Source: Pukyongia salina (GTDB lineage: Bacteria > Bacteroidota > Bacteroidia > Flavobacteriales > Flavobacteriaceae). Taken from it: DNA of 64,000 nucleotides. A program made the translations under genes and the position numbers. A model generated the notes under the pieces. The model was not told the origin of the DNA, did not search any database, and saw nothing but the letters and a program-made list of their open reading frames with translations. Where the stretch lies: positions 992,001-1,056,000 of the forward strand of contig NZ_CP027062.1 in assembly GCF_002966125.1 (NCBI RefSeq), read 5' to 3'. Positions 31,185 through 35,602 of this stretch are shown here, one piece after another (position 1 is the stretch's first letter; every line of letters begins with the position of its first letter).

Positions 31185-32083
31185 ATAAAAGGGTTCTTGC
31201 ATTAGCTGCGGCTACAGGAGCCAGTGCGATCTATGGTATTAATCATACTATAGCAAAAGGTCTTATGCCAGATATTATCGGACCTTTTGGGTTTATTCTT
31301 CTTAGAGTAGGCGGTGCAGCCGTACTTTTTTGGCTTATAAGCTTCTTCTATCGCTCCGAAAAGATCGATAAGAAAGACTGGTTACGAATAATAGGTTGTG
31401 CCTTTTTCGGGATGGTGCTTAACATGAATATGTTCTTTAAGGGCCTCGAATTATCCACTCCCATAAACAGCTCGGTGGTGATCACCTTGTCCCCTGTACT
31501 ATTACTGGTACTTTCGGCATTTTTTCTGAAGGAGCGTATCACGTGGCTGAAATCTGTAGGAATTGGAATTGGCTTAGCGGGAGCCTTGCTACTCATCCTT
31601 TTTGGATTAAAATCTCAACCAAATGCCCCTAACATTCCTCTGGGAAATATTCTCTTTATTGTAAATGCGGCTTCGTATTCCTTCTATCTTATTTTCGTTA
31701 AGCCCCTGGTATCAAAATACAGTTCAATTACCTTAATGAAGATTTTTTTCCTATTCGCCCTTGTTATGAATCTACCAATAGGTTTTGGCGAATTCTCCCA
31801 GGTTAGCTGGTTTAACCTGGATATGGATACAATATGGAAACTGGTCTTTGTGGTTGTTGGAACCACCGTGATGACCTATTTGCTAAACATATATGCGCTT
31901 AAACAACTAAGCCCGTCCACTATCGGTGCGTTTATCTATTTACAGCCGGTAATTGCGGCAACATTCGCTATTCTGGCAGGAGCAGATACACTTACTCCCT
32001 TACGGGTACTGGCAGCCATACTGATCTTTACCGGGGTGTTTCTCTCTACCAGGAAACCGAAAGCTAAAACTGAAGGTTCTTAG
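31181..32083 (+). CDS. EamA/DMT superfamily transporter
   Basis: This 300-residue inner membrane protein has about ten hydrophobic segments in two homologous halves, each an EamA unit (first half to about residue 140, second starting near NAASYSFYLIFVKPLV). Typical EamA features include SSVVITLSPVLLLVLSAFFLKERITW and LSPSTIGAFIYLQPVIAATFAIL. The substrate is unknown; family members export amino acids or small metabolites. It overlaps the ArsC-like gene by 4 bases and its 3' end overlaps the convergent thioesterase gene by 20 bases. Confidence 0.88.
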   Translation: MNKRVLALAAATGASAIYGINHTIAKGLMPDIIGPFGFILLRVGGAAVLFWLISFFYRSEKIDKKDWLRIIGCAFFGMVLNMNMFFKGLELSTPINSSVVITLSPVLLLVLSAFFLKERITWLKSVGIGIGLAGALLLILFGLKSQPNAPNIPLGNILFIVNAASYSFYLIFVKPLVSKYSSITLMKIFFLFALVMNLPIGFGEFSQVSWFNLDMDTIWKLVFVVVGTTVMTYLLNIYALKQLSPSTIGAFIYLQPVIAATFAILAGADTLTPLRVLAAILIFTGVFLSTRKPKAKTEGS

Positions 32084-32540
32084 GTTTCCTGCCAAATGCG
32101 CGCATATCTTCTTTAGTGAGTATTTTAAAATCAGCTGTGTGAGGTGATAGTTTAATTTTTTCGATCAATTCTGGAGGGAGTGCTGTGAGTTTCCGCGATG
32201 AAAGATCCATCCACCCTCCCTGCATATCGCAACTAGCTAGATTCTCTCCTTTATCATTGTAGAAATTGTGAACGAATTTGAAGAATTTACCGTCCTCGCT
32301 TATCCCTCCAAGTTCGAAACTAACTTTAATCTTTCCTCCCAGGGATTCTTTGAAAAAGTATAGATGTTCATGAAATACCACCGGGCCAATATTGTATTTG
32401 TCCATCGTTTGGGCGTCGAAGCCGTGCTCGTTCAGGAAGCTCATACGGGTATGGCTCATATACATTACATACGAGCTATTTGCGAGATGCCTGTTGGCAT
32501 CCAGGTCGTTCCATCGTATTTCAAATTCTTTCAAGTACAT
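32064..32540 (-). CDS. acyl-CoA thioesterase, hotdog fold
   Basis: From ATG 32540 the protein is 158 residues, starting MYLKEFEIRWNDLDANRHL. The WNDLDxNxHL pattern followed by SYVMYMSHTR is the catalytic and dimer region of 4HBT-type hotdog thioesterases. The start at 32540 gives a 20-base overlap with the end of the alpha/beta hydrolase gene; an upstream start at 32567 is possible. It is cotranscribed with that hydrolase and therefore probably under the TetR operator at 33396. Its 3' end overlaps the EamA gene. Confidence 0.82.
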   Translation of the reverse strand: MYLKEFEIRWNDLDANRHLANSSYVMYMSHTRMSFLNEHGFDAQTMDKYNIGPVVFHEHLYFFKESLGGKIKVSFELGGISEDGKFFKFVHNFYNDKGENLASCDMQGGWMDLSSRKLTALPPELIEKIKLSPHTADFKILTKEDMRAFGRKPKNLQF

Positions 32541-33387
32541 GTCTACCTTTTTTAGTTTGTGTTTCAATAAATTCTAACACCAGATTCAATACTTCATCAC
32601 TCTTTAGGGTATGATCAAGCCCGTTGGTATAATGGTATTCTATATTCTTTGCTTCTGAAGCGGCCTCTTTTATCGGCCCGATGGGGGTAACGGTGTCTGT
32701 TTCCTCATGAATGAGAAATAAGGGCTTATCCAACTTCCGAAAAAAATGCTTCATAGTGATATCACTATGTGGAAGCTTTAAAACTTCATTGAACCGCACA
32801 CCGAGATTGTTAATCATCCCGGGAGAAAGGTCCATCTTTTCTCTGCAATACCCAAATACGGGCTCTAATCCTTCGATCGATCCCATTATCACATAATTCT
32901 TTACCGCCACTGAAGGACTATACAGATATTGATAGCCGGCTACCAAATTGCCAAAGGAATGCCCAACCACCACATCTACTTCTCCTATCGTCCGGATTGC
33001 CTGTTCATATGCCTGTCGAAAGATCTCTATGTTCATGTAATTCGAGTAGGAGTCTCCATGTCCCGGTGCATCCAGCGCATAACAGCTATATTGCTCTGGA
33101 TCCAGGGATTCTACATATTTCTTCCATCGCTGGGAATTACTCATCCAGCCATGTAAAAAGAGTACCTTCACCGGGCCCTTACCCCATCGATGTAAGGCAG
33201 TATTAATGCCGGCAATATCCATCCAGATAGTTTCGCCCACATCAAAAAATTTTCTTCCCGTTTCAGTAACTGGGATGTGTTTGATCCTGCATAATAGGTC
33301 GAAAGCACGGTTTCGTGTATACTTTGGGAATACCGGTGCCAATAAGTTGAATGTTCGCCCGATGATTTTTGGTAGTAACTGCTTCAT
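32521..33387 (-). CDS. alpha/beta hydrolase
   Basis: This 288-residue hydrolase has an oxyanion HGWMSNSQRW motif near residue 79, the nucleophile elbow VVGHSFGN (Ser144), an EETD acidic segment, and a late DHTL histidine. There is no signal peptide, so it is cytosolic or membrane-associated. The substrate is likely a small ester or thioester. Its start lies 8 bases from the 18-bp TetR palindrome, and it is followed by the thioesterase gene overlapping it by 20 bases, so the two form a controlled unit for acyl-chain or ester processing. Confidence 0.82.
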   Translation of the reverse strand: MKQLLPKIIGRTFNLLAPVFPKYTRNRAFDLLCRIKHIPVTETGRKFFDVGETIWMDIAGINTALHRWGKGPVKVLFLHGWMSNSQRWKKYVESLDPEQYSCYALDAPGHGDSYSNYMNIEIFRQAYEQAIRTIGEVDVVVGHSFGNLVAGYQYLYSPSVAVKNYVIMGSIEGLEPVFGYCREKMDLSPGMINNLGVRFNEVLKLPHSDITMKHFFRKLDKPLFLIHEETDTVTPIGPIKEAASEAKNIEYHYTNGLDHTLKSDEVLNLVLEFIETQTKKGRHVLERI

Positions 33388-33395
33388 AATGATTG

Positions 33396-33413
33396 AGATA
33401 CCAATTGGTATCT
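33396..33413. promoter_or_regulatory. 18-bp palindromic TetR-type operator, copy 1
   Basis: AGATACCAATTGGTATCT is a perfect 18-bp palindrome ending 8 bases before the hydrolase start codon. An identical copy precedes the TetR gene at 34028-34045. Confidence 0.85.
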
Positions 33414-33429
33414 ATAATTTTAAATTTTT

Positions 33430-34020
33430 TTATATAGACAATTCTTTTACCAGGCTTCTTAGGTGATGTATGGTGTGTTGTATCGCTTCATCATTACGTT
33501 CCAGCTTACTCATCATGATCCCTCCTTCCAGGCCGGCAATAAAGATGGTGCTGTAAAACGAAACATCTATATCCGGTTTTACCTGCCCGTTTTTAATCCC
33601 GTTCGCCAGTAATTTTGCCATAGATGCCCTTAAATGTGCAAGCATATTATAGGCCTGTTGCCTTAGTACAGGATTTGTATCATCTGTTTCAACAGCAGCA
33701 TTCATTAATGGACAACCACCTTCATATAGTGGCGCATTCATATAATTTTCAAAGAAAGTAAAGATGGCTTCAAATTTTGTTTGAAATGAATTTGCCTTCC
33801 TGATCAAATCACCAATCTCCTCGAACATTAGTTTAGACAAGCGACGGAGCGCATGCTGTTCAAGGTCCTGTTTGTTTTCAAAATGCCTGTATATAGCACC
33901 CTTGGTTAAGCCCGTAGCCCTGGTAATATCACTTATAGAAGTTGCCTTATAACCTTGTGTATTAAAAAGGTTTGCACTTTCGTTTATAATACGGTTTTTA
34001 GTGGCTTCGGAATTTCTCAT
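33430..34020 (-). CDS. TetR/AcrR family transcriptional regulator
   Basis: This 196-residue repressor has an N-terminal helix-turn-helix (about residues 8-55: ESANLFNTQGYKATSISDI, then TKGAIYRHFENKQDL) and a variable ligand-binding domain ending in IHHLRSLVKEL. The sequence shows its own binding site twice: an identical 18-bp palindrome sits 7 bases before its start (34028-34045) and 8 bases before the downstream hydrolase start (33396-33413). It therefore most likely represses itself and the hydrolase-thioesterase pair. The ligand is probably hydrophobic, such as an acyl compound, judging by the target genes. Confidence 0.9.
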   Translation of the reverse strand: MRNSEATKNRIINESANLFNTQGYKATSISDITRATGLTKGAIYRHFENKQDLEQHALRRLSKLMFEEIGDLIRKANSFQTKFEAIFTFFENYMNAPLYEGGCPLMNAAVETDDTNPVLRQQAYNMLAHLRASMAKLLANGIKNGQVKPDIDVSFYSTIFIAGLEGGIMMSKLERNDEAIQHTIHHLRSLVKELSI

Positions 34021-34027
34021 GCGCCAA

Positions 34028-34045
34028 AGATACCAATTGGTATCT
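34028..34045. promoter_or_regulatory. 18-bp palindromic TetR-type operator, copy 2
   Basis: AGATACCAATTGGTATCT here is identical to copy 1 and lies 7 bases before the TetR start codon. The same site is 71 bases before the divergent YheT-like gene, so it could also act there. Confidence 0.85.
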
Positions 34046-34116
34046 AATTTAGCAAATTTCTTTCTATTTCACTTTATTCCTCTATCTTTACAACCTCTGG
34101 ACCATACAACACACGA

Positions 34117-35079
34117 ATGCCATTAGTAACTTCCTCCTATCGTGCAAAGGGATTATTTAAAAACGCACATTTTTCCACCATTTATTCGGCAAAGATCAGG
34201 CAAGCTCCCAGGCTGGTTCAAACAAGAGAACGTGTTACCCTTAGTGATTCAGATTTTATCGACCTCGACTTTAGTTTTACGCCCGGGGGGTCAACCAAAA
34301 TCGCCATTTTATTACACGGCCTGGAAGGTAATGCTCAACGCAGCTATATAAAAGGGCAGGCGAGAGTGCTCACGGAAAATAGCTGGAATGTATGTGCTGT
34401 GAACTATCGTGGTTGCAGTGGAGAACCTAACCGGTTATACAAGTCGTATAACGCAGGTAAAACAGACGATCTGGATGAGATCATTCATTATATCTTGCAA
34501 AAGGATTCCTATACGGAGATCGCTCTTATTGGTTTTAGTCTCGGTGGAAATCTCTTATTGAAATATCTCGGGGAACGGGAGTCTGTTCCGAAGGAGATCA
34601 AAAAAAGCATTGCTGTTTCGGCACCCTTGAGTTTGGAAGGGTCGCTCAATTCTCTAACGAGATTTCACAATTGGATCTACCGAACTTCTTTTTTGTATGA
34701 CCTTCGGAAGAAATATGTACAAAAAGTTAAGCTATTCCCCGAACTGGCTTCGGCTTCAGAAAGTAAAAAGATAAGATCCCTGCTGGATTTTGATAATATT
34801 TATACGGCCCCGGCACACGGATTTAAAGACGCTTACGATTATTACCACAAAAACAGTAGTGGGCAATTCTTAAAACAAATCAAAATCCCGATTTTAATTC
34901 TCAATGCCGAAAACGATAGTTTTTTAAGTGATCGATGTTATCCGAGAGAACTTGCATCAGAATTAAAAAACATTTATCTTGAAACTCCAAAGTACGGAGG
35001 ACATGTGGGCTTTGTAGGCCCTAATAACATCTATTATAATGAGACCCGTGCCCTGGAGTTTTTAAATTCTAATCACTAA
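34117..35079 (+). CDS. YheT-like alpha/beta hydrolase
   Basis: This 320-residue protein belongs to the YheT/ABHD family (UPF0017 type). It has LLHGLEGNAQRSYIKG, then NYRGCSGEPNR, and the nucleophile elbow IGFSLGGN with Ser141, followed by a late acidic residue (NAENDSFL) and histidine (GGHVGF). Family members are esterases acting on acyl lipids. It diverges from the TetR gene, whose operator lies 71 bases upstream; a TATCTTTA -7-like element at 34083-34090 lies between. The azurin gene follows by 10 bases. Confidence 0.85.
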   Translation: MPLVTSSYRAKGLFKNAHFSTIYSAKIRQAPRLVQTRERVTLSDSDFIDLDFSFTPGGSTKIAILLHGLEGNAQRSYIKGQARVLTENSWNVCAVNYRGCSGEPNRLYKSYNAGKTDDLDEIIHYILQKDSYTEIALIGFSLGGNLLLKYLGERESVPKEIKKSIAVSAPLSLEGSLNSLTRFHNWIYRTSFLYDLRKKYVQKVKLFPELASASESKKIRSLLDFDNIYTAPAHGFKDAYDYYHKNSSGQFLKQIKIPILILNAENDSFLSDRCYPRELASELKNIYLETPKYGGHVGFVGPNNIYYNETRALEFLNSNH

Positions 35080-35089
35080 TTAAGAAAGC

Positions 35090-35602
35090 ATGAAAATATT
35101 AAGATTTACGATACTCCTTCTAATGTTGGGCCTTATTTACAACTGCGGTGGTGAAAAAGAGAAAAAGGAAGAAAAGGAAGAAATCAAGATAGGTAATAAG
35201 AAAGAAGCTGTTACCGAAAAATCCAATAGTGTGAACATTGGCCTTACCGGAAATGATCTCATGCAGTTCGACAAGAACGAGATCAAAGTAAAAGCAGGCC
35301 AGGAAGTTACTTTAACCCTCCGGCATATAGGAAAGCTCGATTTAAAGGTAATGGGACATAATTTTGTTCTACTCAAGCCTGGAGTCTCTATTCCCGAATT
35401 TTCTATTAAAGCTGGTGAAGCTGGTGAAGCTTTAGATTGGATCCCGGAAAATTCTGATGATGTAATTGTACATACCAAAATGATAGGTGGAGGACAAACC
35501 ACCTCCATTACCTTTACCGCTCCAGCTGCTGGGACTTACGATTTTATTTGCAGTTTCCCCGGGCATTCGGGCCTTATGAAAGGTAAATTTATTGTAGAAT
35601 AG
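35090..35602 (+). CDS. azurin, lipoprotein form
   Basis: This 170-residue lipoprotein (lipobox YNC at Cys19) has a charged KE-rich linker of about 25 residues and then a complete azurin fold. The copper ligands are visible as H90 (MGHNF), C154, H159 and M163, with the diagnostic spacing C-x4-H-x3-M. Azurins carry single electrons in the periplasm or on the envelope. It follows the YheT-like gene by 10 bases and converges with the sugar-oxidation operon, whose dehydrogenase needs an electron acceptor; that partnership is only an inference. Confidence 0.9.
   Translation: MKILRFTILLLMLGLIYNCGGEKEKKEEKEEIKIGNKKEAVTEKSNSVNIGLTGNDLMQFDKNEIKVKAGQEVTLTLRHIGKLDLKVMGHNFVLLKPGVSIPEFSIKAGEAGEALDWIPENSDDVIVHTKMIGGGQTTSITFTAPAAGTYDFICSFPGHSGLMKGKFIVE

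Follow-up and report, generated by a model that had tools for sequence, protein, structure and literature searches.

The closest described systems belong to the NemR type of TetR repressors. In Escherichia coli NemR, Cys106 is the residue sufficient for bleach sensing (PMC8748444, PMC3739934). NemR with this single cysteine suffices for hypohalous-acid sensing, and the sulfenamide model for its Cys106-Lys175 pair is disputed (PMC8748444). AltR of Pantoea ananatis, a NemR-related repressor, responds to thiosulfinates and needs its one conserved cysteine for de-repression (PMC13178969). Closest of all to the repressor described here, by both sequence and fold, are two solved structures, 3qbm (Caur_2221, Chloroflexus) and 3eup (Cytophaga hutchinsonii), which share a GGCP motif. 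Both are uncharacterised, and we know of no operator, ligand or target for either.

A locus of Pukyongia salina, lying in a 64-kb stretch of DNA that was analysed as a whole (the window), carries a tetR gene of this kind. Comparative analysis makes it highly probable that the gene forms an autorepressed operon with genes for an alpha/beta hydrolase and a hotdog thioesterase, controlled via two predicted operators, O1 and O2.

Locus layout and operator copies

The minus strand reads, in order, O1, tetR, O2, hydrolase and thioesterase (Table 1). By this arrangement the three genes make up one predicted operon, with one site at its head and one in its first gap. O1 ends 7 nt ahead of the tetR ATG (34020), and O2 begins 16 nt past the tetR stop (33430) and ends 8 nt ahead of the hydrolase ATG (33387). 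The first-pass annotation had described two identical 18-bp sites at just these distances from the two starts, and the coordinates bear this out: the perfect 18-mer AGATACCAATTGGTATCT occurs exactly twice.

Table 1. Genes and predicted regulatory elements of the tetR locus (window coordinates)
Feature	Coordinates	Strand	Description
Predicted -33 element TTTG	34053..34056	-	20 nt upstream of -7 box; match to TTTGN{18,20}TANNTTTGN{3,5}ATG
O1, predicted 18-bp palindromic operator AGATACCAATTGGTATCT	34028..34045	-	in tetR promoter; conserved in 71/71 Bacteroidota loci (at least 10/12)
Predicted -7 box TATCTTTG (TAnnTTTG)	34025..34032	-	overlaps O1; 4 nt, then ATG
tetR	33430..34020	-	196-aa TetR family repressor; TetR_N + TetR_C_13 (PF16925); single cysteine Cys103
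A/T tract TAAAAAAATTT	33422..33432	-	begins inside tetR stop codon, precedes O2; co-occurs with O2 in relatives
O2, second identical predicted operator AGATACCAATTGGTATCT	33396..33413	-	tetR-hydrolase gap; 56/71 Bacteroidota loci
Alpha/beta hydrolase gene	32521..33387	-	288 aa; likely catalytic triad Ser144 in GHSFG, Asp231, His259
Hotdog thioesterase gene (4HBT_2, PF13279)	32064..32540	-	ORF overlaps hydrolase end by 20 bp
YheT-like hydrolase gene	34117..35079		divergent from tetR operon

The genome search for further palindrome copies that had been proposed with this description returned only the two known sites. At up to three mismatches, no other copy lies in the window, where shuffled sequence gives 0, and no third copy exists in the whole genome (3,182,272 bp). 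Matching the core pattern GATACC-N4-GGTATC at two mismatches yielded 141 genome matches vs 100 for the reversed control, a count inflated by a repeat elsewhere in the genome; none of the matches listed has only one mismatch. A wider regulon in this genome was considered and rejected, with no third operator copy and no additional target standing out. The repeat lies outside the window, at about 286322-291983 of C1, where regularly repeated matches 297 and 594 bp apart carry TATACTCGAAGGTATC / GGTACTCGAAGGTATC; it is probably a gene for a long repeat protein.

Conservation of the operators among relatives

Eighty homologous loci were compared, 71 of them from Bacteroidota and spread over Flavobacteriaceae, Cyclobacteriaceae and other Cytophagales, and Saprospiraceae. 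Each of the 71 carries a GATACC-N4-GGTATC-like site ahead of tetR (at least 10 of 12 bases). With at least 11 of 12 bases matching, the site is present in 70 of the 71 tetR-upstream segments vs 0 of 16,375 random 60-bp segments from the same loci. The O1 columns are 90-100% conserved in these loci, most flanking intergenic columns about 35-60%, and the 18-mer ends 6-7 nt ahead of the tetR start codon in nearly all of them. A second site, O2, lies between tetR and the next gene, an alpha/beta hydrolase, in 56 of the 71.

This comparison supports the pairing of regulator and site, and the autoregulation, that had been suggested from the window. The perfect identity and equal spacing of the two copies, which that suggestion stressed, are true in the window but incidental: the central 4 bp are the same at O1 and O2 in only about 9 of 56 relatives, and the distance from O2 to the hydrolase start ranges from 2 to 42 nt. 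Across loci L003-L077 the operator centres are mirror-biased around tetR, O1 having mostly AATC and O2 mostly its reverse complement GATT; at O1 and O2 alike, the half bearing ACCG is usually the one turned towards tetR.

A survey of 397 genomes of the family gave 20 clear tetR orthologs (E below 1e-60). Exact GATACC-N4-GGTATC stands at the gene in 18 of them, and the remaining two have the near-matches AATACCAAGCGGTATC and TATACCTATTGGTATC there. Around the inspected sites away from tetR orthologs, none of the four proteins has a homolog, and most of these sites fall inside coding sequence; the reversed control pattern is also present in dozens of the 397 genomes. In a sample of the phylum, sites fused to TATCTTTG turned up in 4 of 395 genomes, and in one of these four the two matches lie within genes and are due to chance; such low numbers point to a patchy distribution. 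Literature searches gave no relevant record of this motif in connection with TetR proteins. Four loci (L087, L097, L099 and L100) have a second TetR-like gene (23-29% identity) near the tetR locus. As judged from this conservation, the tetR system is probably real and conserved, and of an ordinary kind.

A predicted operator fused to the tetR promoter

What the first-pass annotation missed is that O1 is an integral part of the promoter. The right arm of O1 (GGTATCT) together with TTG reads TATCTTTG, which is the Bacteroidota -7 box TAnnTTTG; this arm, the one closer to tetR, contributes the box's first half (TATC+TTTG). Among the Bacteroidota loci, O1 is followed by TTTG in 58 of 71, by TTTA in 6 and by TTCG in 6; no relative with an O2 has TTTG after it. 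Because TTTG follows O1 and never O2, it is a feature of the promoter rather than of the palindrome. The window promoter, TTTG-N20-TATCTTTG, conforms to the Bacteroidota primary sigma pattern of TTTG, about 19-20 nt and TAnnTTTG, and a TTG stands 17-21 nt from the -7 box in 53 of the 71 relatives, mostly at 19-20 nt.

The distance from the -7 box to the tetR start codon is 3 nt in 35 loci and 4 nt in 33, which together make 68 of the 71. O1-to-tetR spacing is thus rigid, whereas O2-to-hydrolase spacing is not. In Flavobacterium johnsoniae, where the -7 consensus is TAHHTTTG, 4-5 nt separate the box from the transcription start (PMC6847099). Under this rule, a box-to-ATG distance of 3-4 nt predicts a tetR transcript that begins at or next to its ATG, and the tetR mRNA is predicted to be leaderless and self-repressed. 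Counting against this best explanation, only a minority of flavobacterial transcripts lack a leader (5.5% of the mRNAs mapped in F. psychrophilum; PMC9723704), and in loci with 3-nt spacing the start would need to fall slightly nearer the box than usual. A leaderless layout kept across several families would be notable, while still a prediction. One point new in this analysis is the fusion of the predicted O1 operator to the -7 box. With almost no leader, this fusion would make a compact, phylum-adapted repressible promoter, and it could serve as a flavobacterial genetic tool.

The second predicted operator and its A/T tract

In most relatives O2 lies 16-19 nt past the tetR stop. Ahead of it, at a fixed distance, stands an A/T tract of the TAAAAAAATTTAA or TAATTTTTTTAACC type, composed of a 7-base A or T run plus TTT; the TTT occupies positions -12..-10 relative to O2 in 96% of relatives. 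The tract is found in 53 of 56 loci with O2 vs 1 of 15 without it (Fisher p about 4e-11, relatedness of the loci not corrected for). Where O2 is missing, the hydrolase start is usually nearer to, or overlaps, the tetR stop. The absence of O2 from 15 of the 71 relatives counts against the best explanation and indicates that O2 is not essential to the system.

The conserved TTT sits near where the -33 element is placed relative to O1, which suggests a degenerate internal promoter. O2 would then be the operator of a second hydrolase promoter, TTTR - 20 nt - TATCT, with O1-like geometry, and the enzymes would have a repressible promoter of their own. The presence or absence of tract and O2 together also speaks for this arrangement, which we regard as a serious possibility, somewhat short of probable: its -7 half lacks TTTG (TATCTTAA/TATCTAAA), which should weaken it strongly, and the tract occurs both as A-runs and as T-runs. 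The missing full -7 box is what one would expect if O2, about 631 bp away from O1, were no more than a roadblock or an auxiliary (looping) site that lowers read-through or helps to keep O1 occupied. We entertain this role tentatively. The O1-O2 distance is nearly constant (630-634 bp in 52 of 56 relatives), but that follows from constant gene length, and looping would need no conserved A/T tract. The palindrome in the gap is also part of the transcript, where it can fold into a 6-bp stem closed by a 4-nt loop, and this might act as an RNA hairpin in processing or attenuation instead of as an operator. Conservation of the same sequence at O1, upstream of the predicted start and outside the tetR mRNA, makes this reading very improbable.

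Probable target genes

In nearly all Bacteroidota loci tetR is followed by a hydrolase homolog, often no more than 20-60 nt away. Its Ser144 (GHSFG), Asp231 and His259 are invariant in 53 of 53 sequences and its structure model has a pLDDT of 94.9, so that the enzyme is probably active, judging from alignment and model. The nearest folds, at TM about 0.6, belong to a varied set of esterases, dehalogenases and lipases and do not narrow the substrate. The thioesterase gene occurs only in Flavobacteriaceae-type loci and is missing from loci of other families that keep the operator. Comparative genomics supports the earlier proposal that both enzymes are targets, their genes lying in the same predicted minus-strand operon as tetR.

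A third enzyme on the same switch, the product of the divergent YheT-like gene, had also been proposed; as a shared target it is rejected for this window. The gene has its own -7-like box, TATCTTTA, about 37-40 bp beyond O1, and O1 in the window lies upstream of where the corresponding -33 element would be. Most divergent relatives have similar promoter elements; at L020 and L024 the YheT -33 element would overlap O1. Adjacency is not conserved either: only some Flavobacteriaceae have YheT close by in divergent orientation, and in many relatives with an intact O1 it is kilobases away or missing from the locus. Downstream of the YheT-like gene, at 35090-35602 of the window, lies a gene for an azurin-like small copper protein, recognised from its translation only.

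The repressor and its possible inducer

The TetR protein matches TetR_N (PF00440) with 53.4 bits vs a cut-off of 24 and TetR_C_13 (PF16925) with 89.5 bits vs a cut-off of 27; NemR itself scores 40.7 with the latter. Its structure model is an all-helical TetR fold (pLDDT 93.5) that best matches 3qbm (TM 0.95), then 3eup, with NemR (4yze) among the next matches. The NCBIfam equivalog cut-offs for AcuR (61 vs 247), ScbR (87 vs 150) and CurR (31 vs 300) are not reached. By domain content, the protein belongs to the NemR-type (TetR_C_13) branch.

Cys103, the only cysteine, lies in the conserved GGCP motif, is present in 51 of 51 relatives and aligns with NemR Cys106 in all of them. Lys172 aligns with NemR Lys175, being K in 45 relatives and R in 6. 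NemR Cys21 and Cys116, with which NemR responds to electrophiles, have no equivalents; all relatives have Phe19 and Asp113 instead. More distant TetR homologs also have the cysteine; their residue 172 is K, R or Y, and their operators are different. Cys103 was rejected as proof of redox sensing on this ground: its invariance in distant homologs marks it as a branch-wide trait and hence weak evidence for redox sensing by this protein. Five of the distant homologs (L153-L156 and L158) have ATATACC-N4-GGTATAT or TATGACC-N4-GGTCATA near their own start. ACC-N4-GGT is probably the core of a wider operator family, within which the outer three bases would set specificity.

The relationship to NemR and the invariant single Cys103 suggest that the inducer might be a thiol-reactive oxidant or electrophile, an assignment that we make with some reserve. 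It would also point to a class of inducers for a subfamily that is uncharacterised even though structures from it, 3qbm and 3eup, are solved. An acyl ligand, as the first-pass annotation had in mind, is one of two reasonable guesses; the subfamily gives no less reason to expect a thiol-reactive signal, and induction by such a signal is a fair hypothesis, no less plausible than induction by acyl-CoA. For an acyl-chain sensor, in which acyl hydrolases are induced when the C-terminal pocket takes up a fatty acid or acyl-CoA, one can cite the predicted co-transcription with an alpha/beta hydrolase that has esterase-fold catalytic residues and with a 4HBT_2 thioesterase, as well as low-score matches to FadR-type TetR proteins. 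Such a sensor seems unlikely, with a branch that is TetR_C_13, with AcuR/NemR/AvaR-type relatives and not FadR/FasR, and with the thioesterase missing from the non-Flavobacteriaceae loci, which indicates that acyl-CoA handling is not the constant part.

Taken further, the thiol-reactive alternative would describe a stress operon shared by several families of Bacteroidota. Its NemR-like repressor, naturally limited to one cysteine, made from a leaderless mRNA and controlled through a -7-fused operator, would respond to oxidants or electrophiles by turning on a lipid/ester hydrolase. We consider this extended picture doubtful. To our knowledge, a lipid/ester hydrolase is not known as the output of a NemR-type sensor.

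Proposed mechanism

The sequences show the palindrome, how widely it is kept among relatives, how it merges with the -7 consensus, and the order of the genes. On this footing, the autorepressed operon may work as follows. A TetR dimer would bind O1, which fills the spacer and the first half of the tetR -7 box, and the bound repressor would exclude RNA polymerase. The tetR transcript would start at, or about 1 base from, the A of the tetR ATG, as its spacing suggests. A second dimer on O2 would keep transcription out of the enzyme genes, whether it reads through from upstream or starts at a weaker internal promoter. An inducer would then free the repressor, and the enzymes would be made. For this branch of Bacteroidota, the analysis thus offers a regulator, a predicted operator, a promoter and a target operon from sequence alone, together with about 70 natural variants for testing.

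Comparison with known systems

E. coli NemR has the same TetR_N + TetR_C_13 architecture, aligns over its full length to a profile of this TetR family (E 8e-17), matches it in fold (4yze) and has Cys106 and Lys175 where the alignment places Cys103 and Lys172 here. The region upstream of E. coli nemR contains TAGACCGACTGGTCTA, an operator-like palindrome of the same 6+4+6 layout with an ACC-N4-GGT core. The nemRA-gloA operon likewise has a palindrome close before its own regulatory gene and enzymes downstream in one operon. However, NemR is only about 16-17% identical to the TetR protein described here, it has the two additional cysteines without equivalents, and its outer operator bases are TAG/CTA as opposed to GAT/ATC. 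The enzymes of nemRA-gloA are a reductase and a glyoxalase, whereas here they are a hydrolase and a thioesterase. Only the present system has a Bacteroidota -7 promoter and a predicted leaderless mRNA.

AltR is similar in that an inverted repeat overlaps the -10 box of its own gene, further repeats lie in its cluster and one cysteine is conserved. It differs in its operator, CAATCTAC-N6-GTAGATTG, in its target genes and in its response to thiosulfinates (PMC13178969). Set beside these systems, the tetR locus is, by sequence comparison, a known kind of switch in a new and well-conserved instance.
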